A stretch of DNA of 64,000 nucleotides from contig CACVBU010000598.1 of NCBI GenBank assembly GCA_902728285.1, forward strand, positions 1,193,407-1,257,406, given 5' to 3'. A model generated the notes under the pieces. The model was not told where the DNA came from and did not search any database. It saw nothing but the letters and a program-made list of their open reading frames with translations. This document shows positions 16,568-51,354 of the stretch, piece by piece (the first letter of the stretch is position 1; each line of letters opens with the position of its first letter). This stretch comes from Clytia hemisphaerica. Taxonomy: Eukaryota > Cnidaria > Hydrozoa > Leptothecata > Clytiidae. Position numbers and translations under genes: made by a program.

Positions 16568-16620
16568 AGCATTCACGTTGGCAATTGTGGTCAAGTGTGA
16601 TTGTGCTCTGCTTCTCGATG

Positions 16621-20542: not shown

Positions 20543-20624
20543 AATACGTCGAAAAAATATTTTTTTTTAATTTATTCTTTATTTTAAGTTAGGTGGTATC
20601 TAGAAAATTACAAGTAAGTTTCGG

Positions 20625-20877: not shown

Positions 20878-20904
20878 AAATTATAGAAAAAGTATATAAT
20901 AACA

Positions 20905-22533: not shown

Positions 22534-22534
22534 N
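22534..22534. other. Single N at the junction of two near-identical blocks
   Basis: This is the only ambiguous base I noticed. It lies exactly between the end of copy 1 and the start of copy 2, as expected from a join or an unresolved polishing position. Confidence 0.9.

Positions 22535-27488: not shown

Positions 27489-27490
<2 letters not shown>
25651..27490 (-). repeat. Dispersed repeat R, copy A, second fragment
   Basis: It continues repeat R: TAATTTGCTCAAGTTTTCAA at the left and GGTCTTCAAAATAGATTTAC before the TTAA-flanked element, then GGTAAATCTATTTGG and onward to TTTAAGATGGCGCAGAACCT and GTTTATTAGGCAAAG at the right. All are found inverted in 39858-40690. It contains the 915-bp insertion at 25940-26854 and about 130 bp of extra sequence near 25720-25850. 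A 111-codon chance frame at 27044-27379 is within the repeat and is not called. Confidence 0.75.
25940..26854. mobile_element. 915-bp piggyBac-like element (TTAA target) in repeat R
   Basis: The ends GGGCCTATTTGTTTCA and TGAAACAAATAGGCCC are 16-bp inverted repeats. The left flank is TTAA (25936-25939) and the right flank is TAAA, probably a mutated TTAA; the empty site in the R copy near 40500 reads CACTTAGAG. TTAA duplications are the mark of piggyBac transposases. There is no transposase. Inside, 26528-26550 is a perfect hairpin, GGCGGACTGT and ACAGTCCGCC around TTT. Confidence 0.75.
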
Positions 27491-27585
<95 letters not shown>

Positions 27586-27606
27586 TTAAATCAATCAATA
27601 ATCAAA
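27483..27606. repeat. AATC microsatellite at the LINE B 3' end
   Basis: About 24 uninterrupted AATC units, then imperfect ones. Read on the minus strand it follows LINE B directly, matching the microsatellite tails typical of CR1/L2-like LINEs. Confidence 0.9.
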
Positions 27607-27755
27607 TCAATTAATTATTCCTGATTCAAATCCAACTGTCATAAAAACATTAAAAATATATATATTGAAAAAAAAGAGCTGAGAAAAAAAAAACTATGTA
27701 CAATTTTTACAAGTGCAGATAGGTAAGACATTTTTTAGAGCATTTTTAAAGGAAT

Positions 27756-30700: not shown

Positions 30701-31275
30701 AGAAAGAGATCCTCGTTGAAGTTTTTATATTTTCGATACTTGATAATTGTTGGTGGTAATTTAGTATACTTTAACTTAAGCATTGTATAAATTAACTTAA
30801 CCCCGTTTCTACTGTTCCCGTATTTTTGATGTTTTATTTTGAGTTTGTCAAGATAAGGTCGATACACGTACCTCTTTCGATTTAAAACAAGTTTTTGATT
30901 TCATGACATTTGACATGTCATTAAATTCGAGGAAACGTGCTACCTTGGGGTCAGTAGGCTCAAGGTTAAAATCACCAATGACTATGATATTGTGATAGTC
31001 TACTTCATAAAAGTGTATAGCATTGGATAAAGTATTAAAAAATAAATCTATGTTAATTCTATCTGGCCTATAAATATTAAATACCAATAATTTGTCTCTT
31101 TCCTAAGTCTTATTTCTAAAGGAAGAATATGTAGAGCAGGGTCTAGCTTAAAATTGGTCAAGTGACGTGTAGGAATGCCACTTTTCACAAATGTTAAGAG
31201 GCCTCCACTGTTTGATGTACAGTCTATACGAAAAGGAGGAAATTTGTAGCCCTGTAGATTAAAGTCAAAAAGACA
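27756..31275 (-). pseudogene. LINE B ORF2 (endonuclease and reverse transcriptase), broken
   Basis: The endonuclease part is recognised by GYKFPPFRIDCTSNSGGLL near 31200-31250 and by IIVIGDFNLEPTD near 30975. After a frameshift near 30860 a lysine-rich linker runs to about 29950, containing KHFWGAIKT and SVSGTIPTRVLKI. RT motifs follow: ADITPVLKKG, NYRPISLLPVVSKIFERLI, CGFRKGHSTQHAI, LIDLSEAFDCLPH, GVPQGSILGPLLFNIFINDL and the catalytic NFADDNT at about 29405. One more frameshift lies near 29940-29960. Beyond the inserted element the frame resumes (HNSMVANPSMFQL, then VKLLGIKID and LRALRRVRHFL), the usual region after the palm, and ends near 27756 (STWNKLP). Apart from the insertion and a few frameshifts it is well preserved, so this copy is fairly young. 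Confidence 0.85.
28434..29319. mobile_element. 886-bp piggyBac-like element (TTAA target) in LINE B
   Basis: The ends GGGCTCTGACCATAGT and its complement are exact 16-bp inverted repeats apart from the last base or two. Both sides carry TTAA (28430-28433, 29320-29323); removing the element and one TTAA restores the LINE B frame (GAT TGG TTT AAG CAT). On the plus strand an open frame to 28668 ends in an acidic stretch (FDEEENEDFCEEEYFNFEEL); acidic N-termini are seen in piggyBac transposases, but this is too short to prove descent. An ATTT microsatellite and T run lie near 29010-29046. Confidence 0.85.
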
Positions 31276-31284
31276 AGTTTATTG

Positions 31285-31585
31285 ACGTCGTTTTTTAAAA
31301 CAGCGATAACTTCGATTCTATTACTACAATTAACACCAAATTTCGACTGGAGACGTTGATTGTTGATTTTGAAATAATGCATGAAAAAAATTTGATTTTT
31401 TGATGACGTCATCATTATTTGACGTATTTTAGTTTTTACCGACAGTAAATGACATCATCTAAAAATTTTGAAAATTTCTCAACAAATATTTAAGAATCGT
31501 TAATCTACGTCTCCAGTCAAAATTTGGTGTTGATTGCATTAATAGACTTGAAGTTTCAATAATGACGTCATTTGAATCTTACTTA
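31285..31585. repeat. Imperfect inverted repeat with TGACGTCAT
   Basis: CAACACCAAATTTCGACTGGAGACGT-type sequence near 31330-31355 and its complement near 31515-31540 form the arms, with TGACGTCAT at 31404-31412 and 31562-31570. It abuts the truncated 5' end of LINE B. Probably a small MITE; ends not defined. Confidence 0.45.
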
Positions 31586-31612
31586 TGACGTGTTTTTTCG
31601 ATGTATTTCATA

Positions 31613-31790
31613 ACGTCAAAATCAGTTTTTGGTCGATATCTTGAGATTGGCTTAATTTAAATTTTCGGCCCAGCACTTTCCGAAATCCTCTAATTAATAC
31701 GCTTCTTTTGAGCTATATACGAGAGTTAAGGAACAATGGGAAGCGGTGGAAAAATCGGGAAATAGGTTTTGGACTTTCCTTAACTCACCT
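31613..31790 (-). repeat. Dispersed repeat, inverted copy of 20395-20542
   Basis: The segment from AACGTCAAAATCAGTTTTTG to GTTTTGGACTTTCCTTAACT matches the earlier copy on the opposite strand. It is followed by GAGGGTAGCCACCCACGC, which the first copy lacks. Confidence 0.65.
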
Positions 31791-32277
31791 GAGGGTAGCC
31801 ACCCACGCTAAAGCTATAAAGGAGCAGGTCAATTTCCCATCGTAGAGGAGTGATAGTCAGCGTTTGATGGTGCATCTCCAGTCGGGCTCAGCTAACCTCG
31901 CGCTAGCCTGGGAATCCAAGTGTTAAACTTTGTTCACAGTCTAGTTTATGATATTTTTGGTGCTTATTTAACGCTTGGCGCGCAGATAGTTCATGGTAGG
32001 TAATCCTACCTAGGTCACGTGACATTACAATATAATTTCAGCGCTTGACCAATCAAATTCAGACAGAAGCTTCGCGGGTTTTAGAAAACAATGGCAACAA
32101 TATATTTTCCGATTTTCATTTTTTTTTGCCTGCGATGGCTTAAAACACGACATCTAGCCCTTCGGGCTTTATAAATCTATGAGGTAACTCACCTGCAGGG
32201 AGATTTTTCCTTGCAATGCAGGTTCGGCCTGATTGACTAGCTTTCGGCGTATTTACTGAGGTAAAGCATACCAGGAT
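31791..32277. other. No gene seen
   Basis: Mixed composition with GC-richer patches near 31880-31920. I see no open frame of note and no match elsewhere in the window. Confidence 0.3.
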
Positions 32278-32378
32278 AATCATGACGACGGGCGAAAAAT
32301 GTAATAGGCTAGTAAAAATACGAAATTTACTTGGTTGAAACTCACTAGCCTGTTAAATTTTCGTTCGTCGTCGTGATT
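32278..32378. ncRNA. 101-nt imperfect hairpin (miRNA-like or tiny MITE)
   Basis: The left arm 32278-32313 (AATCATGACGACGGGCGAAA onward) pairs with 32344-32378 (ACTAGCCTGTTAAATTTTCG onward) over about 35 bp, with five or six mismatches and one bulge; the loop is about 30 nt. Length and pairing suit a pre-miRNA-like hairpin, but a small inverted-repeat element would look the same. Only the pairing is seen. Confidence 0.3.
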
Positions 32379-33786
32379 TTACCGATACGAAGTTTCTAGC
32401 GATTGAAGAAAGCTGGAAAAGCAGGTTCTCAACAATTTCTCACGGAAAATTAATCATGCATGTGCATCGTTAAATGATCATTAATGATTCACAAGTCTTT
32501 AAATACAATTCAAAATTCTAAATCATCCTCGCTACTGCATTCACTCAGAATATCATATTAGTATACTTCAGCAGATTTCCCTGATGAATTTTCTGGATCT
32601 CCCCATACTGTATTTAATTATAAGCCCCGTATACTTCAGTCAACCTTTCTTTACTTTTATGACATTAGAACAATCGGATGAGTGCTTTCCGGGCTTCAAA
32701 CAGATGACTAATCAATGGCTTACCAAAAGACTGGATATCTGACGGGAAACACGACAAAAAGATCCTTAAAGAAGAACGATTACCAAAACAAACGCTGGTC
32801 ATTGGAGGTTGATGATCTTAGATAAATATTCACCGTCGACAACTTAGCAACTATGGAATCGTGGATGCGTTTTATCAAGTTGATCATTCAAGTTAATTTA
32901 TCAAGCTGAATTTGGTCTTTCCTGTGAGAATTACAAACGGACTGATATGTCATGAAGCTTATACCTCTTAAAAAATCTATTTCATATTTTATAGTTTTTA
33001 AATTTTTTATCTCGTATACTTAACGTCCAAAGACTTGCAGATGGAATATTTTCACTAGTGAAAAATTTTGTACATATAGAGAAGACCCTCGACCTCCGAG
33101 GGTCGGGATGACGGATGCCATTGGTTCGGAGATAATGTTTCCTCCAAAATAAACAGCCACTTGGGGGTTTTACGCAACAATCTCGGTCAAAGTATATTGG
33201 GAATCTTGGTTAATTTTTCGTTTTCAGTAATTTAAAGTTCGGGCGAAAAAGTCGCTTTTGGGAAAATTGATAAATCTATTCGAATACTTGAATTTGGGAG
33301 ATTGTCTACGGTCATGCTCACGTAGATATCAATTATATATGTGTAAAATGCATAACCAGGTAGATCCACAAAAATATCACTTGTTTATATAGCAAGGGAC
33401 TTTAACCATCATGACTTTCAATCATCAAAACAAATACTTTATGAGTAAACCAGGAAACTTTTTTTACTCTATCCTCAATGAAATATTTCATTAAGTCGAA
33501 TTCACGAAATAAAAATATCGCCAATGGCCTGAACCGCGAAATTTCCTTGCCGCGAAAATATGCCAAAAATGCCCCTTTTTAGGTTGCTTACTTAGTTTGT
33601 GATGAATTTTAGTGCTAGGCTGCTAAGCCAAGTTGCTTAGTTTTTGGTTATTTTCAGGGCTGATGAAACCTTAGCAACTCAGTTGCTTATAAAACATGTA
33701 GCAGGGATAAAAAAGAAACACCAATTTTGCATAGACTTAGTAACAAATGGTGATAAAAATAGTAGCATAATTGCCACCGGAGAAAT
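32379..33786. other. No gene seen
   Basis: A+T-rich spacer. A short GC-rich stem (CCCTCG and CGAGGG) lies near 33086-33104. An 80-codon frame at 33644-33886 runs into the repeat at 33787 and is not called. Confidence 0.3.
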
Positions 33787-34006
33787 CCTAAAGCTTCTGA
33801 GGATGGCATTCATAGCTTCACGCATAAAGAAGTTGGGCAAACATCTCATAATTTTGCGCGTTTTTCAGTATTTTAGTTCCGCTTAACGGTAGCATTCTTA
33901 TCTTACGGTCTCTCTATTGTTTTATCATCATCAAAAAGACTTTTCCGAAGTTATTTTGATCTGATTACTCATTTTGAAATGTCAGTTTGTCTTTTTCTTA
34001 TCCCTG
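33787..34006 (-). repeat. Dispersed repeat, inverted copy of 13607-13797
   Basis: CCTAAAGCTTCTGAGGATGG, TTCCGCTTAACGGTAGCATT and TTTTATCATCATCAAAAAGA through CTTTTTCTTATCCCTG match the earlier block on the other strand at high identity. Confidence 0.7.
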
Positions 34007-35791
34007 AAGAGTTAAAGGAATCTAAGGAAATTCCCTTTTCTGGGAAATTCCCTTTTTATACCACAAATAGTTATTAAGCGCTCTTCATAGTATTCGAACA
34101 GTTCTGTTGCTAAACGTGTAAGTTATAAAAATAACATATGAAGAGCAGTATTTTCAGGGAGTTTCTAAATATCGACCAGAAATGGCGACCACGACCAGCG
34201 ACCACGACCGGCGACCAGATAAATTTGGGTTATCGAGTTTTTCCTCTTTCTCCACCGTTGAGTCTTTCTCTTATGATCATTTATTTATCGAATTGAAAAG
34301 TAAACCTCACCCCTGTCTCACCTACAGTGATTATTAAGCCACGTGCAAAACGTGTAGAGCAGCCATTTCAACGCTCATGGAGCTTGAATAGAGTGTCAAT
34401 TTCTATCCTTTTGTATTTTCGGCATCAAATTAATTAGTGGCAAAATTTGTGCTGGAACTTATTTAGAAAGCTTTATATTTGATCATTAGATCATTATTTT
34501 GTCAAAATAAGTCATTTTGACAATGTAAGGACAATAGAATAATTGATGAGATTGATATCTCTAAAACTGGCCTTCCCAACTTTTTCCTACTGACACTTTC
34601 TATCTATTCATACTAAAGGCATCATAAAGTTTACAGGCATCACACTTAATTGCCCTGTCAATATTTTTGTCAAAAAGTGTCACTTTGTTTAGAAAATAAC
34701 TGGTACGTCAATACAAAAGTCACTTTTAGTATTCTCTCTAGCTAGAGTAATTCTCAGCCACGTGCTCAGTAGTTCATTTCTCGGGTAAGTTATGGCATGT
34801 CTTAAAATTACCATAATTTTTAGATCGCATTAGCCGACAGAAATCGACCAAACAAATGACTGAACATGAAGGGTACTATGAGGGCGGTCATGGTAAAATC
34901 ATAGAGGTATAAAGAAAACAGGAGTTGAATGTGTCGGTAATTGGTCGTTAAAGTCTTTTGATTTCTTTTATAAAATGTATCAAAAGAAATTCTAAGCTCG
35001 CCCGATGAAATAAGACTTTTTAGTAGAACTCAAGTTTGCTCTGAACATTCTAATAATCAGTATTGAAGATTCTAGCCTTTTAATATACGAAAATTAGATA
35101 AAACTTCGTCCACGAAACAAATTTATGTTCCATTTCGCTATCCGTTCAATTTTGTTTTGAAAAGATATTTTCTCAAGCCAGAAAATGAAAAGTTCTTTAT
35201 AAGCACACACGATTTCAGACTCAATTGTAGACATAAAGTCGCTGGAGAATTTTGGAGGAAAGTATCAAGCAATAGAGTTCACCTGAAAGAAAACATTGAT
35301 CGAAAAATCTTATCATTTGATGAAGGATTGCCAAGTTTACAGGCCTTTTTTTAGTCCAAATATTTTCTTACACTGATGTCAGAAACAATGAATCTCGTCT
35401 CATCTAATTTCTAAAGCTTAAATGAGCCAATAAGATTTAACCTATGGATAAAAGAGCTCATTAAAAATGCATGATATATGAGATTATGAGCATGCATACA
35501 TCGTAACTTTTTTAATCGTAGGGCGAGCTTGGTTACAATAGCATACTTCTCCTGTCTTTCTTTATACCTCCATGGTAAAATCTCGTATCTATCTAAAAAT
35601 ATAAAGCATTGCGTTATGGTAGGCAAATGCAGTGATGTGATTGGCCTATCGCATTTATACCACTATCGAGTATTTCTATAAAGATGAAGAGGGTTTAAGG
35701 CGTATTAAGAAGGTGTCGAGGAATGGATTTCATGGGTTTTGGTTGTGTGGGCCTGTGTGTATGGTGTAGTACTGTGCAGTGGTGTGGTTGA
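34007..35791. other. No gene seen; two kB-like motifs
   Basis: GGAAATTCCC (34027-34036) and GGGAAATTCCC (34042-34052) stand 16 bp apart, the same motif as in the large array at 41.5-50.4 kb. Near 34182-34217 ACGACCAGCGACC-type units repeat twice or three times. Otherwise no coding or repeat content is clear. Confidence 0.35.
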
Positions 35792-36061
35792 TAGCGAGAT
35801 TATGTATCGGAGATATTCTACGGCTACGGTTGCGGGGCTGCACATGCGGGTCATCACCAAAGGCGACATGTTGTTGTCTACTTTGCTGTTGTCTACTTTG
35901 CTCTGTACGGGAAAAATACCAAAACACCGTATAAGCAAAGTCGACATAATGCCGTACGTCAAATATCGAACTTGCTTTCACCCGCCATTACTTGCCTTAC
36001 TCGCCATTTCCCTCGCCGCTTTAACCGTAGCCGTAGAGAATTCCAGATACATAATCTCGCT
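35792..36061. repeat. Inverted repeat, ~40-bp arms
   Basis: AGCGAGATTATGTATC and CTACGGCTACGGTT on the left (35792-35834) pair with AACCGTAGCCGTAG and GATACATAATCTCGCT on the right (36022-36061). The centre includes a tandem TGTTGTCTACTTTGC pair. Probably a small inverted-repeat element. Confidence 0.55.
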
Positions 36062-36974
36062 GATATCATACTCCAGGATGCATCGTCTCTTATTTTCCCC
36101 CTATTTTCTACTTTCCTATCTACTATCCCGATTTTCTGTCTTTCTCAAGTGTTCCTAACTGTTTTCTAAGCATTTTTCTAAAAATTTCCCGTACCGGTGA
36201 AACAGGTCTCCGACCCCGGCTCAAACCACCAAATGCAAGCAACCTTGGTTTACAAAACCCAACGCCTAACCGCTTACGCCAACGAGACACCGCAAAATGT
36301 TGTCATTCACAAATACTTATAGCGTGTAATTTACAGACCTTAATTAAGAAAGCTCCCAACCCTACCGGTGCCCCTACAAGGATCCCTACGGGATTCTAAG
36401 TTAAGTCACAGGGTACAAATGCCCCTAAGAAGGCCTTCGGCCTTATATTGTGACTCTCGAGCTCCAACCCTAAACCTAACTGATAATAACCGAACCCCCG
36501 TCTAGGTCCGCGGATTGAAAAATTTCACTTGCATCCTGGAGTATGATATCGTCTGCCAACCGAAGAAAACAGAGGCAAGTTCATGTCATGAGCTCTTACT
36601 GATATTTTTGAAAATTCCTGTTATATTTTTGAAAAATAAAAATTTTATAAGTAGTGTCACCTCAGTGCAGTTTGAAGCAAGTACAGTATTTCAAAATGGA
36701 TCAGGTTGGTTAGTGGGTGGAGAGTCAAGAGTTATGACTTTCCCTTCTCTTGAAAATCCAGTATTCCAAAACTTTGAACTAAAAAAAATGCATAAAAATC
36801 GACTTTCGTCTTTTTTTATTATCTTGCAAACACTTTTTTCGAAACCACAAGTGAAAGAAAAGCAGATAAAAATGATTGACAGGTCTAAAAAATGATTGAC
36901 AGGTGCGGGTTTGCTAGCGCGGGTTAGAAATTCCCGTGAGCAATCTCGTTATTTATCAGCATGTGTTCATTTTC
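36062..36974. other. No gene seen
   Basis: GC content is uneven near 36180-36480. A 126-codon frame at 36515-36895 has no recognisable domain, low complexity and no start or splice context that I trust, so it is not called. The short phrase AAATGATTGACAGGT is tandemly repeated near 36870-36905. Confidence 0.3.
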
Positions 36975-37044
36975 CAAGCGGCTAGTTCGAAACACGGGTC
37001 ACGGGTTACGGGGTACGGGTCACGGGTCACGGGGTGACGGGGCA
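36975..37044 (+). repeat. ACGGGTCACGGGTT-type GC-rich repeat
   Basis: A tandem of ACGGGTC, ACGGGTT, ACGGGGT and similar heptamers, preceded by GGCTAGTTCGAA. The same arrangement is present inverted at 41262-41320, directly outside the large inverted-array element. Confidence 0.7.
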
Positions 37045-37654
37045 GCTCAGATCAAAGTAATTCAAACAGAAAATGTTTTAAAAACACTAAAAATTATCGA
37101 AAAAATCTATTTTGAGGTATTTTATCAACGTATGACTATTTAAAACGCTAAAACCTAACCACGTGCTTTCCACGTGCTTTCGAAGTTTGCATCGTGTATA
37201 ATGCAGACCAGAAAACACCGCAACATATTACATACATATAATAAGCTTATATTATCAACTAGCCATAGCTTTCACTAACTGCCACCCGCTTGTACAAATG
37301 CTTGTAAAAACTAATTAATGCTAATTAAGGCTTTTTAATGCTTTATATAGCAAAAGTTTGGAAATGATTTGGAATAGTTAGAATGATTCTTCTCAACAGC
37401 ATTTTCTTTGAGATATCAATGAATAAGCTAACATAAATGAAACATATTTTTTTCTAAAAATGTGAATTACTTTTTACAAAGAATAAAATATGAATCTTAA
37501 AACTTTCATTAGGAAAAGTGTCCGGGTAGAATCAATTACAGACAGTTACATAGATACTAAACCAGTCAACTATATTTATTTCAACCAATCTGAAATATAA
37601 ATGAAACATAGAAGAACCAAACAGCATAAGAAATGCTATAAGCCAGAAACATAA
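37045..37654. other. No gene seen
   Basis: A+T-rich. A phrase CTAGCCATAGCTTTCACTAA at 37258-37277 recurs with small changes near 39374 and 14785, so traces of a dispersed repeat are present. Confidence 0.3.
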
Positions 37655-38045
37655 CGAGCAGGAACCAAAAATTGACAGGTAACAACGTACTTAGGAGTTT
37701 TTCCAACGGTTTAACAAATGATATCGTGATCCAAAATTGTTTACATTAAATGGATTTACCAGTAATCTAGAAGCTGTAACAGCGTCGTGTAAAGGATGGA
37801 AGATGATAGGACGTAACGTGGCAATAGTATCAGTAACGAGGCAATATTGATGAGCAGGAAGCAGGTATTAACAGGAAATAGTGTACATTCTTTTTCCAAC
37901 GGCATGATAAGGGATCTCATGGACAAAATTGTTTACATTAAAAAGATATGCCAGTTATCTTGCAGTTGTAACAGCAATATCGTGTAGAAGGATGGAAAAT
38001 CATGACCTAACGTGGTAATAGTAGCAGTAACGAGGTAATATTGCG
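37655..38045 (+). repeat. Two-copy tandem duplication (~190 bp)
   Basis: Units starting GAGCAGGAACC / GAGCAGGAAGC share TTTTTCCAACGG, AAAATTGTTTACATTAAA, GCTGTAACAGC / GTTGTAACAGC, AGGATGGAA and AGTAACGAGG.AATATTG. Period about 193 bp. Confidence 0.7.
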
Positions 38046-38713
38046 TTGTCAATGTAAACGAATCCTCATTCATAAAAAGCTTAAAGGGAAAAAAAAAAAT
38101 AAGAAACATGAAATGATGATATATGGTGAGTGTACTGAAATTTCCTCAAAAATAGTTCACAAAAGTTTCTTTCAATCTTTGATAATAATTTCCCAAATAG
38201 TGCCTGGTAAGTATCAACAAGAACATAAATAAACATAAAGGATTAATAAAACCAAGTCTTATAAAAGTAGACAAAGAAAAAAATATTTGTACTTACTGTC
38301 GAAGTACCATAACACAGGATCTTTAAGCATTCTTGTTGGGAGTAGAGTATGTTGAATCACGATTGTCGAATAAATTTAGTTACAGTGGAATTTGGTTGCC
38401 AATTCAACCACCAACAATAATCACTTTTGTCCATATTCAATCATTGTTCTACTATTATCATTGTAATCATTGTTCATTATTGGGGATAAACTGTTTTGTT
38501 TAATCCCATGAAAGTCAAAAGTAAATGCGTTTTGACTGCAGGAGGAGAGAGCTTGAATTTAAGAAAACTTCCAGAAACTTCTCCATTCCATTTCCTGCAT
38601 GTTGACCAATCGGGCAAAATTCTACAAGCGGAATAGAATCTACTCTCGAAAGCTGAGTAAAATGCCCGCGGCGCCTGCTATAAAAAAGAAAAAGTTTTTA
38701 GGCTAGCAACTGC
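38046..38713. other. No gene seen
   Basis: A+T-rich spacer with only short frames. Confidence 0.3.
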
Positions 38714-38870
38714 CGTCCCGGAAAAAAAACCGAACATTTACGGAAGAGACTAACTACGGGGATGCTTGCGCGACAAAACAAACAACAAAATTTCGAGATT
38801 CCAGTCCAATATCTATGCGTGAAACTATGAGTGCCTCCTCGTCGCTGCGCTCCTGCGGGGGCAATAATTC
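38714..38870 (+). repeat. Direct repeat, copy 1 (pair 38714 / 41031)
   Basis: CGTCCCGGAAAAAAAACCGA through TACGGAAGAGACTAACTACG, GGGGATGCTTG and GTGCCTCCTCGTCGCT to GGGGGCAATAAT recurs in the same orientation at 41031-41149, shortened by about 35 bp in the middle. A 2.3-kb segment lies between. This looks LTR-like in layout, but neither copy shows clear TG...CA ends and no retroviral-type genes lie between. Confidence 0.65.
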
Positions 38871-39857
38871 ACTTTTAGTGTTATATGCATGTTATATGTT
38901 ATACGTAAGTAATATACATATTACAATTCCCATCGCCTGAAAAACGAGCTTTCTCAAGAAAATGATAGTACGGCTATTGTTAAATCATATCTCATTATAT
39001 CCCCTCCATCACCTTGAGTATGAATATAATTTTAATGGATAATAACGTAGAAATGATGGTATTTTATAAATGTGTCAATATTTTCCACCTACCATTATGA
39101 ATTTTTAATAAAAATGACGTAATTATACTCATATCTCTAAAACCACTATCTTGCAGCATTTAATCGTTTTAAAACATGTCATCTATATCAAGTCACATGA
39201 TTAGCATCCTATCGAGTATGAAAATCATTTTGCTATAAATTGGTTCAGAGGCATTGGTTCAGAGGCCTTATATTTCATGATTTTGACAATATTTTTGTCA
39301 TTCAATATCATTTTGTCAAAATTTGTGGGTGACATATTATTTAAAAATTTTCATGATAATACTACTCGTATACTAGTCATAGCTTTCACTAAATGCCCCC
39401 ACATAAAGATCATGTCATGCACTTATAAGCTTTAATGCTTTAAAGATTAAAACATTAAATAATAATCAGGAATAATTGATTGATTTAATCATTGATTGGT
39501 TGATTGATTGATTGATTGATTGAGGCATTTGCTTGAAAAAAAATTATATTCCATTAACAATATACTTGAAAAATTCGCAGCTTGATAATTTAATAAAATT
39601 TAAGGCAAAGCTGAAAAAGCTTCTCAAGAATATATTTCAAAAATTATGGTATCATTATCTTACAGGTTTTCCTGTTTGTTTTTTTCTCCTAGTTTCTTTC
39701 TTACAACAATATATATCGTGATTATTATTCACTAAATAGACCTTTTCTGATAATGCCGCGGACATCTTAGATTGTAGGCAAAATATGTAGTGGTGAATAA
39801 ATCAACAAGGTAACCAATCAGAAATAGCTTGTTTCTTTCATTGGCTGCTATATTTCA
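38871..39857. other. Spacer with ATTG microsatellite
   Basis: No gene. About nine ATTG-type units, partly imperfect, lie at 39477-39522; they resemble the LINE B tail at 27483-27606 and stand near the same end of repeat R there, so a LINE tail remnant is possible. Confidence 0.35.
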
Positions 39858-40918
39858 ACAATTATCTATTGCAACTTTGCCTAATAAACAATAGTCAAGA
39901 GGATACTACGTATGAAATTTATCAAAAAGTTCTGCACCATCTTAAATAGGGTGAAATAGAAACCAATCCTAGTTAAGGCCCGGCCTCCACTTGCATACGC
40001 TGTGATTGCACTTCTCAAACAAAATCTTCTATTTTATTGGTCAAAAGAAAAATAAAGGAATGCCATTGTGGTCCATTCAGACGTACAGTCGAGAAAAGTT
40101 GAAATGCGCCTAATTTTTTTTTCAAGTGCACAGTACTTTTTCACGATGCAATATTTTCTCCAAGCAGCGCAGACAATGAAGAGACGTGCCTTCAGAAAGC
40201 TAGACTTTTTGAGTTTATAGCTATATATACTTTCACTTTATGGTGTTTCTGTACATGGCTGTCTGTGTACCTAGTCTAACCAGCGTTAAATGCCTTCGCG
40301 AAGGTCCATCCTAACTTGGAAAGCCAGAATTGGAGCTATTTCACCAAATCAAACCAAATCACTGCAGCGTAAGTTATTTAGGCTATCACAACTGCATGAA
40401 AAAGTTGAATGTGTGCATGTAAAGTTAAACGAATGTAAACAAACTTTTTGCAGGTTTTTGAAAAAGATTTACCACTCTGAAAAAACAGTGAAAAAACTCT
40501 AAGTGAGGTAAATCTATTTTGAAGACCAAAAGAAAAAGTTTGTTTACATTGATTGACATTCAACATTCATTCAACCACTTTTGGATTCAACTTTACATAT
40601 GCATACATTCAACTTTTTTGACAAAGGTAAATTAGAGTTTGAACAAAAATATCAAATGTATATACATTTGAAAACTTGAGCAAATTTCTTTAAAGATTCC
40701 GGAAAAAGAATTGAAATCATTGCTGAAGTGAACTTCTGACTAAATTACAGTAGTTAGTATTCAGTTTTAAAGACAAGAAACAAAATTTGACATACAAAAC
40801 ACTTTTTTCAGTCAATGAATCAGCTCATCATCATCATCATAACCAGTCTGCCATTTTGTTTGTTTTGATTTGCACAAGTAATATTGTAATTCGTGTTATA
40901 TCATACACTGTTATGATT
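39858..40918 (+). repeat. Dispersed repeat R, copy B (uninterrupted)
   Basis: It matches copy A (20905-21142, 25651-25939 and 26855-27490) on the opposite strand and lacks both insertions found there, giving the empty-site sequence for each. About 1.06 kb. There is no recognisable gene, and I could not define terminal repeats. Confidence 0.75.
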
Positions 40919-41030
40919 TGCATTTATAACACTCGCTTCAGCTTTTCAAAGCTAAATCAAAACTAAAATTGTAATATCTAATAATGGTAATAGCATATAA
41001 CGTAATATGAAAATATGTATACTACCGTAC

Positions 41031-41149
41031 CGTCCCGGAAAAAAACCGAACATTTACGGAAGAGACTAACTACGGGGATGCTTGGGCGACAAAACAAACA
41101 AACACTATAAGTGCCTCCTCGTCGCTACGCTCCTGCGGGGGCAATAATT
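41031..41149 (+). repeat. Direct repeat, copy 2 (pair 38714 / 41031)
   Basis: Same sequence as at 38714-38870 except for a missing middle segment (TTTCGAGATTCCAGTC onward). Confidence 0.65.
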
Positions 41150-41261
41150 TTTTCAGACATACTATACTAGTAGTATTAGTACTATTATATGTGTTATGTA
41201 GTACGTGTTATGAATTATTCGTCATGATATCGTTATATTTTTTCCGGTCTGTAAATTGTAT

Positions 41262-41320
41262 GCCCCGTGCCCCGTACCCCGTGACCCGTAACTCGTGACC
41301 CGTCTTTCGAACTAGCCGTG
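41262..41320 (-). repeat. CCCCGTACCCCGTGACCCG repeat, inverted copy
   Basis: The complement of the block at 36975-37044, including the flanking TTCGAACTAGCC. The next bases (41320-41348, GGAAAAGTTGTATTTT through TTACTGCTCTATTCA) recur inverted at 63427-63454, so this flank is itself a mosaic of dispersed pieces. Confidence 0.6.
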
Positions 41321-41352
41321 GAAAAGTTGTATTTTTTACTGCTCTATTCATA

Positions 41353-41518
41353 GGTAGATTCGCTGGATTGTAGGATTGGGATTCAAGGATTCGGATTCGG
41401 ATTCAGGATTCGTAAAAAGCTTTGTAAAAAAAAATTGAAAAAAGATATTGACTTCAAACCAAAGGATCTTGAAAGATTACATAACATAGAGCAGTTCTTG
41501 ACAAAAATTGATGTAAAA
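41353..41518 (+). repeat. Outer terminal inverted segment, left
   Basis: GGATTCGG-type hexamers are repeated near 41380-41412, then an A-rich run and GATATTGACTTCAAACCAAA. It mirrors 50374-50541 with only a few differences. A 66-codon frame (41435-41635) runs from here into the first array unit and is present in both arms simply because the arms are duplicates. Confidence 0.85.
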
Positions 41519-44340
41519 ATGGGCGTGGCCTTGACGCTAATTAGGGAAATTCCCCTTTTTAGGATTCAAATTTCCAGCCCATTGCATACTTTGGCTAGTT
41601 CTCAGTCCCTTCGTTGTATTTGGATCAATTTCTAAACACCTGATCTTATGACCGGAAATGTCAATGATTCATCGTGGACAAAATTTATTGACAACAAGGG
41701 CGTGGCCTCGGTGCTAATTAGGGAAATTCCCCTATTTAGGTTTCAAAACACGAAAATTGCAAAGTTTGGCTAGTTCTCAGTTCCCTCGTTGAATTTGGAT
41801 CAATTTCTAAACACCTGATCTTATGACCGAACATGTCAATGATTAATTGTGGACAAAATTTATTGATAAAAAGGGCGTGGCCTCGATGCTAATTAGGGAA
41901 ATTCCCTTATTTTGGACTCAAACACGAAAATTGCAAAGTTTGGCAAAGTTTGGCTAGTTCTCAGTCCCTTCGTTGTATTTGGATCAATTTCTAAACACCT
42001 GATCTTATGACCGGACATGTCAATAATTAATTGTGGACAAAATTTATTGATAAAAGGGCGTGGCCTCGATGCTAATTAGGGAAATTCCCTTATTTTGGAT
42101 CAAAACACGAAAATTGCAAAGTTTGGCAGTTTGGCTAGTTCTCAGTCATCCTTCGTTGTATTTGGATCAATTTCTAAACACCTGATCTTATGACTGGACA
42201 TGTCAATCATTAATTGTGGACAAAATTTATTGACAACAAGGGCGTGGCCTCGATGCTAATTAGGGAAATTCCCTTATTTTGGACTCAAAACACGAAATTG
42301 CAAAGTTTGGCAAAGTTTGGCTAGTTCTCAGTCCCTTCGTTGTATTTGGATCAATTTCTAAACACCTGATCTTATGACTGGACATGTCAATGATTAATTG
42401 TGGACAAATTTATTGACAACAAGGGCGTGGCCTCGATGCTAATTAGGGAAATTCCCTTATTTTGGACTCAAAACACGAAAATTGCAAAGTTTGGCAAAGT
42501 TTGGCTAGTTCTCAGTCCCTTCGTTGTATTTGGATCAATTTCTAAACACCTGATCTTATGACCGGACATGTCAATGATTAATTGTGGACAAAATTTATTG
42601 ACAACAAGGGCGTGGCCTCGATGCTAATTAGGGAAATTCCCCTATTTAGGATTCAAAACACGAAAACTGCAAAGTTTGGCTAGTTCTCAGTTCCCTTGTT
42701 GAATTTGGATCAATTTCTAAACACCTGATCTTATGACCGGACATGTCAATAATTAATTGTGGACAAAATTTATTGATAAAAAGGGCGTGGCGTTGATCCT
42801 AATTAGGGAAATTCCCTTATTTTGGACTCAAAACACGAAAATTGCAAAGTTTGGCAAAGTTTGGCTAGTTCTCAGTCCCTTCGTTGTATTTGGATCAATT
42901 TCTAAACACCTGATCTTATGACCGGAAATGTCAATGATTAATTGTGGACAAAATTTATTGACAACAAAGGCGTGGCCTCGATGCTAATTAGGGAAATTCC
43001 CCTATTTAGGATTCAAAACACGAAAATTGCAAGGTTTGGCTAGTTCTCAGTTCCCTCGTTGAATTTGGATCAATTTCTAAACACCTGATCTTATGACCGG
43101 ACATGTCAATGATTAATTGTGGACAAAATTTATGACAACAAGGGCGTGGCCTCGATGCTAATTAGGGAAATTCCCCTATTTAGGATTCAAAACACGAAAA
43201 TTGCAAAGTTTGGCTAGTTCTCAGTTCCCTCGTTGAATTTGGATCAATTTCTAAACACCTGATCTTATGACCGGACATGTCAATGATTAATTGTGGACAA
43301 AATTTATTGATAAAAAGGGCGTGGCCTCGATGCTAATTAGGGAAATTCCCTTATTTTGGACTTAAAACACGAAAATTGCAAAGTTTGGCAAAGTTTGGCT
43401 AGTTCTCAGTCCCTTCGTTGTACTTGGATCAATTTTTAAACAACTGATCTTATGACCGGAAATGTCAATGATTAATCGTGGACAAAATTTACTGACAACA
43501 AGGGCGCGGCCTCGATGCTAATTAGGGAAATTCCCCTATTTAGGATCCAAAACACGAAAATTGCAAAGTTTGGCTAGTTCTCAGTTCCCTCGTTGAATTT
43601 GGATCAATTTCTAAACACCTGATCTTATGACCGGACATGTCAATAATTAATTGTGGACAAAATTTATTGATAAAAAGGGCGTGGCCTCGATGCTAATTAG
43701 GGAAATTCCCTTATTTTGGACTCAAAACACGAAAATTGCAAAGTTTGGCAAAGTTTGGCTAGTTCTCAGTCCCTTCGTTGTATTTGGATCAATTTCTAAA
43801 CACCTGATCTTATGACTGGACATGTCAATGATTAATTGTGGACAAAATTTATTGACAACAAGGGCGTGGCCTCGATGCTAATTAGGGAAATTCCCTTATT
43901 TTGGACTCAAAACACGAAAATTGCAAAGTTTGGCAAAGTTTGGCTAGTTCTCAGTCCCTTCGTTGTATTTGGATCAATTTCTAAACACCTGATCTTATGA
44001 CCGGACATGTCAATGATTAATTGTGGACAAAATTTATTGACAACAAGGGCGTGGCCTCGATGCTAATTAGGGAAATTCCCCTATTTAGGATTCAAAACAC
44101 GAAAACTGCAAAGTTAATTGTGGACAAAATTTATTGACAACAAGGGCGTGGCCTCGATGCTAATTAGGGAAATTCCCCTATTTAGGATTCAAAACACGAA
44201 AACTGCAAAGTTTGGCTAGTTCTCAGTTCCCTCGTTGAATTTGGATCAATTTCTAAACACCTGATCTTATGACCGGACATGTCAATGATTAATTGTGGAC
44301 AAAATTTATTGACAACAAGGGCATGGCTTCGATGCTAATT
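41519..44340 (+). repeat. Left tandem array, ~17 units of 176-186 bp
   Basis: Each unit reads GGGCGTGGCCTCGATGCTAA, TTAGGGAAATTCCC, then one of two variants, CAAAGTTTGGCTAGTTCTCA, TTGGATCAATTTCTAAACAC, CTGATCTTATGACCGG and GATTAATTGTGGACAAAATT. Type 1 has CCCTTATTTTGGACTCAAAA with an extra 10-bp CAAAGTTTGG and the TCCCTTCGTTGTA form; type 2 has CCCCTATTTAGGATTCAAAA, no extra 10 bp, and TTCCCTCGTTGAA. One unit near 44115 is shortened to about 98 bp. The array stops in mid-unit at 44340, where the gene frame begins. Confidence 0.95.
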
Positions 44341-44342
44341 TC

Positions 44343-46239
44343 ATTGTGAGAGACGAGCCTCTAAAGACATTGATAAAGTCTACCACTACAAGGTCGGAAA
44401 GAATACAGGCCATTATGCGTGCATCCTACAAGAGATTTGTTAAAGATGCAGAAGAGGAGTTGGACATTTTTGGTCTGTCGTATAAACAGAGCCAATCTTA
44501 CACCTTACGCATCATTGAAGGCCTAACCTATAGAGAGAAAGTTGACCCTGATGATCTCACTAGTTTTGGTGGGAAACAGCGACTGCCCATCGTCTTCAAC
44601 AGACAAAACTATCTCGAGACGGTCCAGTATTGTGTTCTTCCCGAGCTGCTGATACACTTTCAAATGGAAAACTTCCATCTGACGTATCAGCAAGCTACAG
44701 AAAAACTTTATGGAAACCGCAGAATGACCACCCACCATGTGAATTTACTTTTATGCGTAAGGAGACTTCCACTATTTTTTGCTCAAGAATTTCAGATACA
44801 TATGAAATTGGCTTTTATTTTCCGAGACAGGTAATGCAACAAGAATTCAATGTGCACTAATATCTAGTAGAATCAGCATGAAAAACTAAATTATCCAGTA
44901 AGACCACATGAACCAGTTAAGTATATTTTTCTTAAAACGATTTGAATGATAACAATCCTAAGTGACAAGTGCGGGTATCTTTTACAGTAACGAAAAACGG
45001 ATGGGGCATCCTTCAATGGCATATTCATCCAATATGTAGAGCGGCAGATATCCTGTTGGAAAAACGAACAGATGCTCTAGTTTTCAAGACGAACAAAAAC
45101 TTTATCCCGATGAATGTTGTAAGAGTTCTTTAGTTACGAGATCCTTTTTCTTAACAAAAAAGTACTAAATATATCTTTCAGAACGAAGGCCAACCACCAT
45201 AAATCAGAACCCAGTGAAGTGTCTCTGTGAATGGCTTTGTAAAATCACAAGGTATAAGCTTGTGGATAAAGTTCAACTCCGTTATATACATGTACATGTA
45301 TATGTGTTTTCGATTTTAGAGGTTGCTAGAAGAGTAAATAGAGACGATAAAGTACCTGTTATAAATACTTAATTCTAATGACAAAGAATTCTCTATCTTC
45401 TTAGGCATTTTTGATTTAATTCGTAATATTTATTTCAATATTAAATCAGGATGGATTTACCTCTTGGGAAAATGATTTTGGCTTCACACTTGAACAGACG
45501 GAGAAATTAGACAATGTCAACGTTTATCATGCAAATACCCATCAAAGGATATTCCTCATTTCAAAACAAGGCGGTATGTTTTCATCAACCATTAAAAGAA
45601 AATTGAAAAGCTATTTTTTGGTCTATGATATTTTACGGGATGGTATTTTCATGGAAATTACGTCACTTTCCTATTCATACTATAATGATTTCAAAGTCAA
45701 GTCAATCCTCCTATAAGGTTTCCGGTGGGGAAAAAGGTAAAAATTCACAAACACAACGGTACAGGAGAACAAGCCATAATCGTCTAGTACGAGCTAGATT
45801 ATACTCCGAAGGGATTGCACTTTGGAAAAACAGGTGAGAGGTATGTGCAAGCCAATAAAGGGTACCCTTTTTCATACCTTACAAAAAATGAACGACTTCG
45901 AAGTCACGTCAATCCTCATACAAGGTTTCCTCACGAATAAATAACGGATACCCTTTTTTATTCAGTACATAATATTTTACATAACTTTCAGACTCCCTCC
46001 CACCACTTATTCAAACCTTTGAGTAATTATCAAGTTAGAAGTAAAAGATTAGACGAGTTCATAATTTTTGCAATTAAATTTCAGGTAAATTCGATGACCT
46101 ACGAACAGTTTTAGTTTCTATATTGGCGAAGCTGGAAGAATCGAAATGCCGTTCAGTTACTGTAGGATTCACCGACTATCTGCCAAATTTAAACAAAACT
46201 GAAGCACGCACTATGTTAAAAACAATTTTGCAATTATAA
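44343..46239 (+). CDS. Multi-exon gene of unknown function between inverted arrays
   Basis: Four open segments lie in order. Segment 1 (44343-44829) starts in the last array unit without an ATG and has a good donor at 44830 (GACAG then GTAATG); an in-frame 39-nt intron (44757-44795) inside it is also possible. Exon 2 (44988-45118) follows TCTTTTACAG and ends at GTT/GTAAGA; exon 3 (45450-45573) follows TTAAATCAG and ends GGCG/GTATGT; exon 4 (46085-46239) follows AATTTCAG and ends in TAA. Exons 2-3 join in phase 0 and 3-4 in phase 1, each open throughout. Segment 1 to exon 2 is off by one base, so that junction is wrong, frameshifted or has a missed exon. Segments read SERIQAIMRASYKRF, RLPIVFNRQNYLETV, NGWGILQWHIHPICRAADIL, SWENDFGFTLEQTEKL and FDDLRTVLVSILAKLEESK. 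I recognise no family with confidence. Confidence 0.6.
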
Positions 46240-46346
46240 AAACAAAAGTATCTAAAATTAATTCGATTTAGCTGCCCAGAGGAGCACTTGGGTTCATTGA
46301 GATTCATGAAAAACCTCTTCAAGGATTGAATTACTAAACTTGAAAA

Positions 46347-46352
46347 AATAAA
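46347..46352 (+). terminator. Poly(A) signal of the array-enclosed gene
   Basis: AATAAA lies 108 bases after the TAA of exon 4 and before the right array begins, which fits a complete 3' end inside the unique centre. Confidence 0.5.
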
Positions 46353-46416
46353 CATGAAAAAAAACAAGCCTCTTTTCTTTTCTATTTTTCTTTACATTGT
46401 TCAATTCCATCCCATT

Positions 46417-49400
46417 TTATCAATAAATTTTGTCCACAATTAATCATTGACATGTCCGGTCATAAGATCAGGTGTTTAGAAATTGATCCAAATTCAACGA
46501 GGGAACTGAGAACTAGCCAAACTTTGCAATTTTCGTGTTTTGAATCCTAAATAGGGGAATTTCCCTAATTAGCATCGAGGCCACGCCCTTGTTGTCAATA
46601 AATTTTGTCCACAATTAATCATTGACATTTCCGGTCATAAGATCAGGTGTTTAGAAATTGATCCAAGTACAACGAAGGGACTGAGAACTAGCCAAACTTT
46701 GCCAAACTTTGCAATTTTCGTGTTTTGAGTCCAAAATAAGGGAATTTCCCTAATTAGCATCGAGGCCACGCCCTTTTTATCAATAAATTTTGTCCACAAT
46801 TAATCATTGACATGTCCGGTCATAAGATCAGGTGTTTAGAAATTGATCTAAATTCAACGAGGGAACTGAGAACTAGCCAAACTTTGCAATTTTCGTGTTT
46901 TGAATCCTAAATAGGGGAATTTCCCTAATTAGCATCGAGGCCACGCCCTTGTTGTCAATAAATTTTGTCCACAATTAATCATTGACATGTCCGGTCATAA
47001 GATCAGGTGTTTAGAAATTGATCCAAATTCAACGAGGGAACTGAGAACTAGCCAAACCTTGCAATTTTCGTGTTTTGAATCCTAAATAGGGGAATTTCCC
47101 TAATTAGCATCGAGGCCACGCCCTTGTTGTCAATAAATTTTGTCCACAATTAATCATTGACATTTCCGGTCATAAGATCAGGTGTTTAGAAATTGATCCA
47201 AGTACAACGAAGGGACTGATAACTAGCCAAACTTTGCCAAACTTTGCAATTTTCGTGTTTTGAGTCCAAAATAAGGGAATTTCCCTAATTAGCATCGAGG
47301 CCACGCCCTTTTTATCAATAAATTTTGTCCACAATTAATCATTGACATGTCCGGTCATAAGATCAGGTGTTTAGAAATTGATCCAAATTCAACGAGGGAA
47401 CTGAGAACTAGCCAAACTTTGCAATTTTCGTGTTTTGAATCCTAAATAGGGGAATTTCCCTAATTAGCATCGAGGCCACGCCCTTGTTGTCAATAAATTT
47501 TGTCCTCAATTAATCATTGACATGTCTGGTCATAAGATCAGGTGTTTAGAAATTGATCCAAATACAACGAAGGGACTGAGAACTAGCCAAACTTTGCCAA
47601 ACTTTGCAATTTTCGTGTTTTGAATCCTAAATAGGGGAATTTCCCTAATTAGCATCGAGGCCACGCCCTTGTTGTCAATAAATTTTGTCCACGATTAATC
47701 ATTGACATTTCTGGTCATAAGATCAGGTGTTTAGAAATTGATCCAAGTACAACGAAGGGACTGAGAACTAGCCAAACTTTGCCAAACTTTGCAATTTTCG
47801 TGTTTTGAGTCCAAAATAAGGGAATTTCCCTAATTAGCATCGAGGCCACGCCTTTTTTATCAATAAATTTTGTCCACAATTAATCATTGACATGTCCGGT
47901 CATAAGATCAGGTGTTTAGAAATTGATCCAAATTCAACGAGGGAACTAAGAACTAGCCAAACTTTGCAATTTTCGTGTTTTGAATCCTAAATAGGGGAAT
48001 TTCCCTAATTAGCATCGAGGCCACGCCCTTGTTGTCAATAAATTTTGTCCTCAATTAATCATTGACATGTCTGGTCATAAGATCAGGTGTTTAGAAATTG
48101 ATCCAAGTACAACGAAGGGACTGAGAACTAGCCAAACTTTGCCAAACTTTGCAATTTTCTTGTTTTGAATCCTAAATAGGGGAATTTCCCTAATTAGCAT
48201 CGAGGCCACGCCCTTGTTGTCAATAAATTTTGTCCACGATTAATCATTGACATTTCTAGTCATAAGATCAGGTGTTTAGAAATTGATCCAAGTACAACGA
48301 AGGGACTGAGAACTAGCCAAACTTTGCCAAACTTTGCAATTTTCGTGTTTTGAGTCCAAAATAAGGGAATTTCCCTATTAGCATTGAGGCCACGCCCTTT
48401 TTATCAAAAAATTTTGTCCACAATTAATCCTTGACATGTCCGGTCATAAGATCAGGTGTTTAGAAATTGATCCAAATTCAACGAGGGAACTGAGAACTAG
48501 CCAAACTTTGCAATTTTCGTGTTTTGAATCCTAAATAGGGGAATTTCCCTAATTAGCATCGAGGCCACGCTCTTGTTGTCAATAAATTTTGTCCACAGTT
48601 AATCATTGACATGTCCGGTCATAAGATCAGGTGTTTAGAAATTGATCCAAATTCAACGAGGGAACTGAGAACTAGCCAAACTTTGCAATTTTCGTGTTTT
48701 GAATCCTAAATAGGGGAATTTCCCTAATTAGCATCGAGGCCACGCCCTTGTTGTCAATAAATTTTGTCCACAATTAATCATTGACATGTCCGGTCATAAG
48801 ATCAGGTGTTTACAAATTGATCCAAATACAATGAAGGGACTGAGAACTAGCCAAATTTTGCCAAACTTTGCAATTTTCGTGTTTTGAATCCTAAATAGGG
48901 GAATTTCCCTAATTAACATCGAGGCTACGCCCTTGTTGTCAATGAATTTTGTCCACGATTAATCATTGACATTTCCGGTCATAAGATCGGGTGTTTAGAA
49001 TATGATCCAAGTACAACGAAGGGACTGAGAACTAGCCAAATTTTGCCAAACTTTGCAATTTTCGTGTTTTGAGTCCAAAATAAGGGAATTTCCCTAATTA
49101 GCATCGAGGCCACGCCCTTTTTATCAATAAATTTTGTCCACAATTAATCCTTGACATGTCCGGTCATAAGATCAGGTGTTTAGAAATTGATCCAAATTCA
49201 ACGAGGGAACTGAGAACTAGCCAAACTTTGCAATTTTCGTGTTTTGAATCCTAAATAGGGGAATTTCCCTAATTAGCATCGAGGCCACGCCCTTGTTGTC
49301 AATAAATTTTGTCCACGATTAATCATTGACATTTCCGGTCATAAGATCAGGTGTTTAGAAATTGATCCAAGTACAACGAAGGGACTTAGAACTAGCCAAA

Positions 49401-50373
49401 CTTTGCCAAACTTTGCAATTTTCGTGTTTGAATCCTAAATAGGGGAATTTCCCTAATTAGCATCGAGGCCACGCCCTTGTTGTCAATAAATTTTGTCCAC
49501 GATTAATCATTGACATTTCCGGTCATAAGATCAGGTGTTTAGAATTTGATCCAAGTACAACGAAGGGACTGAGAACTAGCCAAATTTTGCCAAACTTTGC
49601 AATTTTCGTGTTTTGAGTCCAAAATAAGGGAATTTCCCTAATTAGCATCGAGGCCACGCCCTTTTTATCAATAAATTGTGTCCACAATTAATCCTTGACA
49701 TGTCCGGTCATAAGATCAGGTGTTTAGAAATTGATCCAAATTCAACGAGGGAACTGAGAACTAGCCAAACTTTGCAATTTTCGTGTTTTGAATCCTAAAT
49801 AGGGGAATTTCCCTAATTAGCATCGAGGCCACGCCCTTGTTGTCAATAAATTTTGTCCACGATTAATCATTGACATTTCCGGTCATAAGATCAGGTGTTT
49901 AGAAATTGATCCAAGTACAACGAAGGGACTGAGAACTAGCCAAACTTTGCCAAACTTTGCAATTTTCGTGTTTTGAGTCCAAAATAAGGGAATTTCCCTA
50001 ATTAGCATCGAGGCCACGCCCTTTTTATCAATAAATTTTGTCCACAATTAATCATTGAATGTCCGGTCATAAGATCAGGTGTTTAGAAATTGATCCAAAT
50101 TCAACGAGGGAACTGAGAACTAGCCAAACTTTGCAATTTTCGTGTTTTGAGTCCAAAATAAGGGAATTTCCCTAATTAGCATCGAGGCCACGCCCTTTTT
50201 ATCAATAAATTTTGTCCACAATTAATCCTTGACATGTCCGGTCATAAGATCAGGTGTTTAGAAATTGATCCAAATACAACGAAGGGACTGAGAACTAGCC
50301 AAAGTATGCAATGGGCTGGAAATTTGAATCCTAAAAAGGGGAATTTCCCTAATTAGCGTCAAGGCCACGCCCA
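46417..50373 (-). repeat. Right tandem array, ~22 units of 176-186 bp, inverted
   Basis: The same unit as in the left array on the opposite strand (TTTTGTCCACAATTAATCAT, CCGGTCATAAGATCAGGTGT, GGGGAATTTCCCTAATTAGC, ATCGAGGCCACGCCC). Both unit types occur, often alternating, and some mixed units combine features (for example near 47600 and 48150: the extra 10 bp with the type-2 CCTAAATAGGGG). Confidence 0.95.
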
Positions 50374-50541
50374 TTTTTATATCAATTTTTGTCAAGAACT
50401 GCTCTATGTTATGTAATCTTTCAAGATCTTTTGGTTTGAAGTCAATATCTTTTTTCAATTTTCTTTTACAAAGCTTTTTACGAATCCTGAATCCGAATCC
50501 GAATCCTTGAATCCCAATCCTACAATCCAGCGAATCTACCA
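50374..50541 (-). repeat. Outer terminal inverted segment, right
   Basis: Complement of 41353-41518, ending TACAATCCAGCGAATCTACC at 50541. Beyond it the sequence (ACAATTTTTATTC) no longer matches the left flank. Confidence 0.85.
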
Positions 50542-51354
50542 CAATTTTTATTCATGCAAGAAATTTCACCATTTTCTTATATTTTATATTATTTAATAAA
50601 TTGGAATTCTTAAATTAACAAAATTATATAAAAAGTTTATCCTCAACATAATTCCAATAAATTTCACAGGATCGAAATTATCTGACAGAATTTCATCCTA
50701 AGAACTTTTTCAAACTCCTGAAAATCACTTCAGTCACGTGACTAAAACCTCTCGCCGCGATTTAGTGGAAGCGCGATTTCAATGTTGAGACGGGGTTTTG
50801 TTTTTTTTAGAAAATGTATACATCATATTTGAATTGAAATTTCGCAAGGTCTCCTTCTAGCCTTTAAAAAAAACAATAACTGTATTCAGAGCCTTGATAA
50901 TTGACTTAGTTTCTCCCGAGTGTGCTAAATTCATAATTTTCTTCAGTAAAATTCTACAGAGCTTTGAAAACCCTTTTTTGTCACAACTTTTTTCCAGTCA
51001 CGTTTAATAAAAAGGCACACCCTGTTTATTATAGAACAGAAAATAAGGTTTCCAAAAACTATAAACACTTTGTATTTAGTGTATTGCTAACCTTGCGAAA
51101 AATCACTTTTGTGATTATCAAATTTCCAACGTTAGAACATATCGCTATTTTCAACTGGAACATGCCTTTATAACAGATATTGCCCTACTACTTTCAAAAA
51201 CTGACTCAAACCTGTTTCTTATTCGTAACAAACCGTATTTCGCATAGTTTAGCATGTTAAGCAATAATTCCGACATAGTAGAAATAAGCAAAAAAAATGA
51301 TGGAATTTTAGCTCCAAATACAATATATACTAATATGCTGCTGATATAGTCTGA
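50542..51354. other. No gene seen
   Basis: A+T-rich. It includes the probable 3' UTR side of the gene at 51355-51948 (minus). No repeat shared with the rest of the window was noticed. Confidence 0.3.

Follow-up and report, generated by a model that had tools for sequence, protein, structure and literature searches.

The question raised by this locus is what kind of structure is formed where two satellite-like arrays, in inverted orientation, enclose part of an intron-bearing gene. The structure, 9.2 kb long, was analysed in a window (the whole stretch of DNA examined here, 64,000 nucleotides) of the Clytia hemisphaerica genome assembly GCA_902728285.1 (417 Mb, 951 contigs). The window corresponds to positions 1193407-1257406 of contig CACVBU010000598.1, labelled C417 in the following. 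An initial annotation of the sequence had offered a foldback transposon family, a captured host gene or an inverted satellite domain as explanations. According to the present analysis the 9.2-kb structure is very probably a member of a foldback family that duplicates 9 bp of its target, and likely a derivative that has lost internal parts. The likely autonomous form of this family would carry a transposase, a Ulp1-type protease region and a further gene, termed W, between its arms.

The element spans window positions 41353-50540; its right end had been placed at 50541 and was corrected by one base. Two 168-base outer segments are inverted relative to each other, and each continues into a head-to-tail array. 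Over 482 nt, 41353-41834 pairs with 50059-50540 at 97% complementarity, and 8224 nt separate these outer arms. The annotated arrangement of inverted outer segments and tandem arrays around a centre is confirmed. Family ends have GGTAGATTCG as outer start and CGAATCTACC as outer finish. The right array has the 22 unit anchors expected from the annotation, and the left array has 16 instead of about 17. Anchor spacings are 173-187 nt except for one 97-nt duplication, and the monomers of both arrays form two length classes of approximately 175 and 185 nt. The centre, described as 2 kb long, measures 2,080 nt (44339-46418).

Further copies were sought in the assembly with the outer 208 bases and with 148 bases as queries, and the best 40 of 232 and the best 40 of 145 candidates, respectively, were scored. 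The 208-base query listed 41 near-full-length ends and the 148-base query 40, two of them new; the assembly thus holds at least 43 near-full-length family ends, including the two of the window copy. The genome search that the initial annotation had proposed therefore yielded at least 41 further ends, many of them as inverted pairs, and the outer segment is not unique to the window. Besides the window, 27 further loci were fetched, and the C597 locus was extended. In 14 elements (28 arms) the arrays ranged from 3 to 40 unit anchors. Unit statistics were obtained for these 14 elements with exclusion of monomers outside 150-200 nt (331 monomers); the mean identity of random unit pairs was 0.938 within an arm, 0.939 between the arms of one element and 0.927 between elements. 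As these values are nearly equal, homogenisation within elements is weak. In the C678 copy (L028 6601-7680) the element centre itself is largely palindromic and internally repeated.

Mobility was assessed from the flanks of the ends. Of 17 two-ended copies, 12 were flanked by 9-base target duplications at a match of at least 8/9, 11 of them perfect and one (C594b) with 8 of 9 bases; C806 and C144 were excluded from the count because their second ends are incomplete. Among the 903 pairs that can be formed from 43 end flanks, 13 agreed in at least eight of nine positions; in 11 of these the two flanks belonged to one copy and in two to different copies, and a same-orientation control gave 0/903. 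For detection of empty sites, the flanks of 12 insertions were each joined with a single 9-mer and compared with the genome, the best 40 of 3453 candidates being scored. Matches running across the joint were obtained for six (the 55-kb composite described below, C495, C394, C882, C391b and C261). Five empty sites were aligned letter by letter, and each contained a single 9-mer. The family thus has the long inverted repeats of tandem units, variable between copies and between arms, that define the foldback class, and it has target duplications and empty sites as marks of mobility. The annotated foldback reading is borne out by the number of copies and the variability of their arms, together with the 9-bp duplications and the empty sites, and the family is a cut-and-paste foldback DNA transposon. 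On two contigs, the right ends C144:510492 (L026) and C659:335741 (L016) are flanked by 9-mers complementary to each other (GGCTAAAGT), which would fit a single insertion split by ectopic recombination or misassembly.

The window copy itself was found to be part of a larger arrangement. Its right flank and the left flank of a family end at C417:1188687 are both ACAATTTTT. One left arm, approximately 44 kb of other DNA and the window copy lie between these two ends; the other DNA includes an endonuclease-type retroelement open reading frame (ORF) and a gene with a MACPF domain. Further members of the target repeat continue across the joint and serve as paralogous empty sites (C412 with 97% identity, C693 and C805 with 96%, more at 88-95%). 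Because the ends share ACAATTTTT and copies of the target repeat cross the joint, the approximately 55 kb between them are likely one insertion. The right end of the window copy is accordingly read as likely one end of a 55-kb insertion carrying other genes, and the insertion as a likely composite (macrotransposon). By structure, 41353-50541 was rightly annotated as one element; as a unit of insertion it does not hold, since its two ends have different flanks and the right one pairs with an end 55 kb upstream. No partner end was found in the assembly for the inner left end, whose flank is unmatched: no family end is followed by the 9-mer CTATTCATA, and a search with a 19-base pattern gave 0 exact matches. 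Two observations speak against a single 55-kb insertion. In the two empty-site repeat copies that were read completely, the target itself is ACATACTTTG and not ACAATTTTT, so that the two flanks are linked through the variant 9-mer they share, and the segment contains a single-N scaffold join at 22534. Similar tandem repeats occur on both sides of this N (window 21437-23408), possibly as an unmerged overlap.

A one-step explanation of the shared outer duplication would be composite transposition, by analogy with the Ising element discussed below. A stepwise origin is a serious competitor for the 55 kb, with a chance somewhat below even: ACAATTTTT would first have been the target of a small element, another element would have inserted within or close to it, and later recombination between right arms would have exchanged the right flank of this second element. 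The inner left end, which keeps its own unmatched flank CTATTCATA, is consistent with such a history, as are the units, which at about 93-94% identity are open to crossing-over, and the other duplication pair split over C144 and C659. However, approximately 44 kb of other DNA must still come between the two ends of one insertion, and the 55 kb showed no right arm belonging to the upstream element. An assembly artefact, in which the join passed through near-identical arrays, is unlikely. It could draw on the same similarity of units between and within elements and on the single-N joins that occur in several copies, but the sole N of the segment is the one at 22534, with similar repeats on both sides, and only coincidence would then account for one variant 9-mer recurring at the two outer flanks. 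A tandem-duplication model (unequal crossing-over) for the mismatched flanks was rejected; apart from three stretches of 30-64 bp, the sequence downstream of the window copy has no match to the upstream part.

The initial annotation had described spliced coding sequence in the centre. Intron-bearing coding sequence is indeed supported: a homologue of W exon 1 at C187 (56% amino acid identity) has a GT splice donor at the same codon position, and the last two predicted W exons join in frame to the stop codon. The window copy retains only a fragment of the gene, however, and its exon 2 is broken by an initial stop codon and by an insertion of 2 nt relative to C311 and C899, which are open. The same stop and insertion were found in C261 and in one C659 copy. 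Because of the disruption of exon 2, the window copy is, judged from its sequence, not expected to make the whole W protein. The centre or parts of it are present in nine of 28 loci, including the window; the right inner boundary is identical in eight, and the left boundary varies. Comparison of W between the window and C187 gave a dN (nonsynonymous divergence) of 0.34 and an undefined, saturated dS (synonymous divergence) by NG86. The differences (56/28/88 by codon position) lie mostly at third codon positions, a pattern as under purifying selection. No Pfam domain was found in W, and a protein search returned one unnamed relative. The predicted structure of W was unusable (mean predicted local distance difference test score, pLDDT, 51.5; best E-value of the fold search 3.1). 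Weak matches of 65-70 residues in a PDB sequence search, the best with E 0.0019 (5uzh) and the next to GDP-mannose 4,6-dehydratase with E 0.0033, were taken as chance. As a guess, W might be an accessory DNA-binding or complex-forming protein. Upstream of W at C187 (L041, reverse strand 1277-2444), a small stretch is present in three copies through a tandem duplication of approximately 402 bp.

A transposase-like frame of 863 amino acids was found at C597, approximately 6 kb inward of a family left arm. The annotated lack of a recognisable transposase is thus correct for the window copy but not for the family. D331, D414 and C460/H463 are invariant in five aligned transposase-related proteins, and no third acidic residue was identified; these residues might be part of a DDE-type catalytic core, in which a C-x2-H motif lies between the second D and the E. 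Genome searches gave 33 matches to the transposase and 29 to W exon 1, and the protein search gave three unnamed transposase relatives only. The copy at C742, 14.5 kb long and with a perfect duplication, contains a Ulp1-type ORF (PF02902, E 5.6e-6). At C472 (L049 220-4488, minus strand), a 1422-amino-acid frame combines the transposase with a USP deubiquitinase domain (PF00443, E 1.3e-15), an unassigned Cys-rich stretch and a Ulp1-like region; this region is 39% identical to the C742 ORF, and Pfam itself gives no Ulp1 domain in the frame. C735b, which has both family ends and a perfect duplication, matches the 5' region of the C597 transposase in pieces that are mostly 91-94% identical, and C735a and the solo right arm of C659 share an inner boundary with C597. 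Copies other than that of the window have preserved the 5' part of the transposase or the protease, which makes internal deletion the likely origin of the window copy; its mobilisation likely depends on transposase produced elsewhere. In the light of C735b, C735a, C659 and C742, the family resembles other DNA transposons in comprising few copies with coding capacity and many with internal deletions, presumably moved in trans.

The origin of W was judged from gene order. In four locus pairs (C187, C558 twice and C197) W lies approximately 6-8 kb downstream of the transposase on the same strand; relatives of the C742 Ulp1-type frame sit between the two on that strand at C187, C558 and C197, and the second C558 locus has transposase and W. 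Because the same protein stands downstream of the transposase at four other loci, W is best read, from its sequence context, as a transposon gene, and the captured host gene proposed by the annotation was not borne out. Capture of a host gene fragment in the manner of Pack-MULE or Ssk-FB4 has accordingly only a slim chance. It would fit the start of W in mid-exon at the array boundary and the retention of introns, and capture by FB4 is described for flies in the account given in PMC8277862. The four loci with the conserved order are, however, diverged, and three of them have Ulp1 in between. A right inner boundary common to eight copies with a varying left boundary is what deletion from one parent would leave; W has no Pfam domain, and a host parent gene for the cargo is not indicated, its protein lying downstream of transposase genes at those four loci. 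C884, at first taken for a host gene with introns, was ruled out as such; it has arm units on both sides and is therefore an old element. An inverted satellite domain or palindromic amplification without mobility, although in keeping with satellite-like units and variable array lengths, can be practically discounted, because the arrays lie within units bounded by nine-base target duplications and the five aligned empty sites already refute it for the family.

Several observations weigh against the reading of the window copy as a derivative of such a gene-bearing family. Five of the 17 two-ended copies (the window's own pair, C899, C666, C659 and C12) have no duplication, and for six of the 12 joined flanks no empty site was present among the best 40 of 3453 candidates. 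The transposase gave no Pfam hit and only one weak PDB match (E 0.093), and its predicted structure was unusable (pLDDT 37). At C649 the order is W followed by transposase, at C430 and C34 the pair is more than 50 kb apart, and on all further contigs just one of the two genes occurs; six of 22 transposase contigs also have W. No family arm units were present in the fetched pieces of C187 and C472, and these loci may therefore represent sister families. No copy was seen that combines both family ends with the full set of genes; at C597 the sequence is interrupted by a gap of at least 6.6 kb. The features of the window are compiled in Table 1.

Table 1. Features of the element and of the surrounding segment in window coordinates
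Feature	Position	Strand	Remarks
Window part of the 55,260-bp segment C417:1188687-1243946	1..50540		Two family ends and one 9-bp duplication; other 4,720 bp left of the window
MACPF-domain gene inside the 55-kb segment	15152..16621	-	PF01823, E 1.1e-24
9 bases outside the left end, CTATTCATA	41344..41352		No matching duplication at the right end
Left outer segment, starts GGTAGATTCGCTGGATTG	41353..41520	+	At least 43 near-full-length copies genome-wide, including the two of the window copy
Left satellite-like array	41521..44338	+	16 unit anchors, monomers of ~175 and ~185 nt
Centre, 3' part of transposon gene W (best reading)	44339..46418	+	Whole or part common to 8 other fetched loci
W exon 1, remainder	44339..44756	+	Begins mid-exon at array boundary; donor GTAAGG at 44757
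W exon 2 (predicted)	44988..45118	+	Disrupted here by an initial stop codon and an insertion of 2 nt; frame open in C311 and C899
W penultimate exon (predicted)	45450..45573	+	Splice sites; in frame with next exon
W last exon (predicted), stop codon	46085..46239	+	Coding similarity to C884 copy; AATAAA at 46347
Right satellite-like array	46419..50372	-	22 unit anchors
Right outer segment, finishes CGAATCTACC	50373..50540	-	
Right copy of the 9-bp duplication, ACAATTTTT	50541..50549		Twin at C417:1188678-1188686, ~55 kb upstream, 4.7 kb before the window

Outside the element, a 193-bp unit occurs twice in tandem at 57445-57828.

Comparison with known systems was made by description. The Mutator-related Rehavkus-1_TC of Tribolium is described as a 9.5-kb element with 164-bp monomers, mostly in arrays of 5 and 8, in its inverted termini, a 9-bp duplication and a minisatellite before the 3' terminal inverted repeat (TIR) (PMC10218199, PMC6446971). 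As far as these accounts go, the duplication length and the satellite-like monomers in inverted termini are alike; the present family differs in arms of up to 40 unit anchors, in a separate W gene and in a related locus that joins the transposase to USP and Ulp1-like regions. The 9-bp duplication falls within the range of 8-11 bp given for Mutator/Rehavkus in the same source (PMC6446971). The MULE domain PF10551 was not found at E-values up to 1 in the C597 and C472 frames. No Pfam hit to the PHD finger of Rehavkus was obtained in the C472 frame, the full protein of the family itself being hidden by the C597 gap. As the agreement is one of architecture and duplication length, and neither a MULE nor a PHD domain came to light in these frames, the family is regarded as a variant of the foldback/Mutator-Rehavkus kind and not as a proven Rehavkus.

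The Mutator/Foldback element Tm1 of root-knot nematodes is portrayed in PMC3169594 with composite TIRs of tandem units and variable length, duplications of 8-10 bp (mostly 9) in 45 of 53 copies, a transposase copy and many non-coding copies. It resembles the present family in its variable tandem-unit termini and mostly 9-bp duplications but, by that description, differs in its units of 13-15 bp and its PF10551-containing transposase. For Tetris of Drosophila virilis, PMC4079207 gives tandem units of approximately 220 bp in foldback TIRs, 8-10-bp duplications and units growing into satellite arrays. The arm design is the same; the Tetris TIRs reach 1.7 kb, and that account presents neither a transposase nor a coding centre. 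In the composite element Ising of Drosophila melanogaster, foldback elements flank large segments of DNA that are mobilised as single units (PMC6431247). According to the same description these segments are cytologically visible and hundreds of kb long, whereas movement of the present segment is suggested by one duplication and paralogous empty sites. Among the papers listed in literature searches on Mutator/Rehavkus/MULE transposons and Ulp1, no matching report appeared, which is not proof of absence. Galileo (P superfamily), as far as its description goes, shares long, internally repetitive TIRs. No THAP domain hit was obtained in the C597 and C472 frames, and this, with the 9-bp duplications, separates the family from Galileo and the P superfamily. 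The Galileo duplication is 7 bp.

The following course of events is proposed. A transposase supplied by a fuller copy would recognise the GGTAGATTCG end, perhaps also sites repeated in the units, cut at the outer ends and insert with a 9-bp stagger. If cutting occurs at the outer ends, any DNA between two ends could therefore move. Unequal crossing-over or slippage would enlarge and shrink the arrays between 3 and 40 anchors, and internal deletion would leave differing remnants in different copies. In the window, the right end of the copy was probably used jointly with the end 55 kb upstream. A more far-reaching proposal, which we put forward tentatively and consider doubtful, is that of a self-equipped foldback lineage with a transposase, its own deubiquitinase, a SUMO protease and a dedicated second protein; its arms would let any two ends cooperate and would naturally move gene-bearing blocks of at least 50 kb, here with a MACPF gene, as composites.

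The ends of a foldback family can be read in this one genome together with its target sites, its deletion derivatives and the probable source of its coding sequence. What moves foldback elements, and the natural carriage of large gene-bearing segments, thereby become directly testable. It is unusual for a transposase to be linked with a USP domain and a Ulp1-like region, and this suggests that ubiquitin or SUMO marks may be regulated while transposition takes place. The arms show satellite-like units that are spread by transposition.

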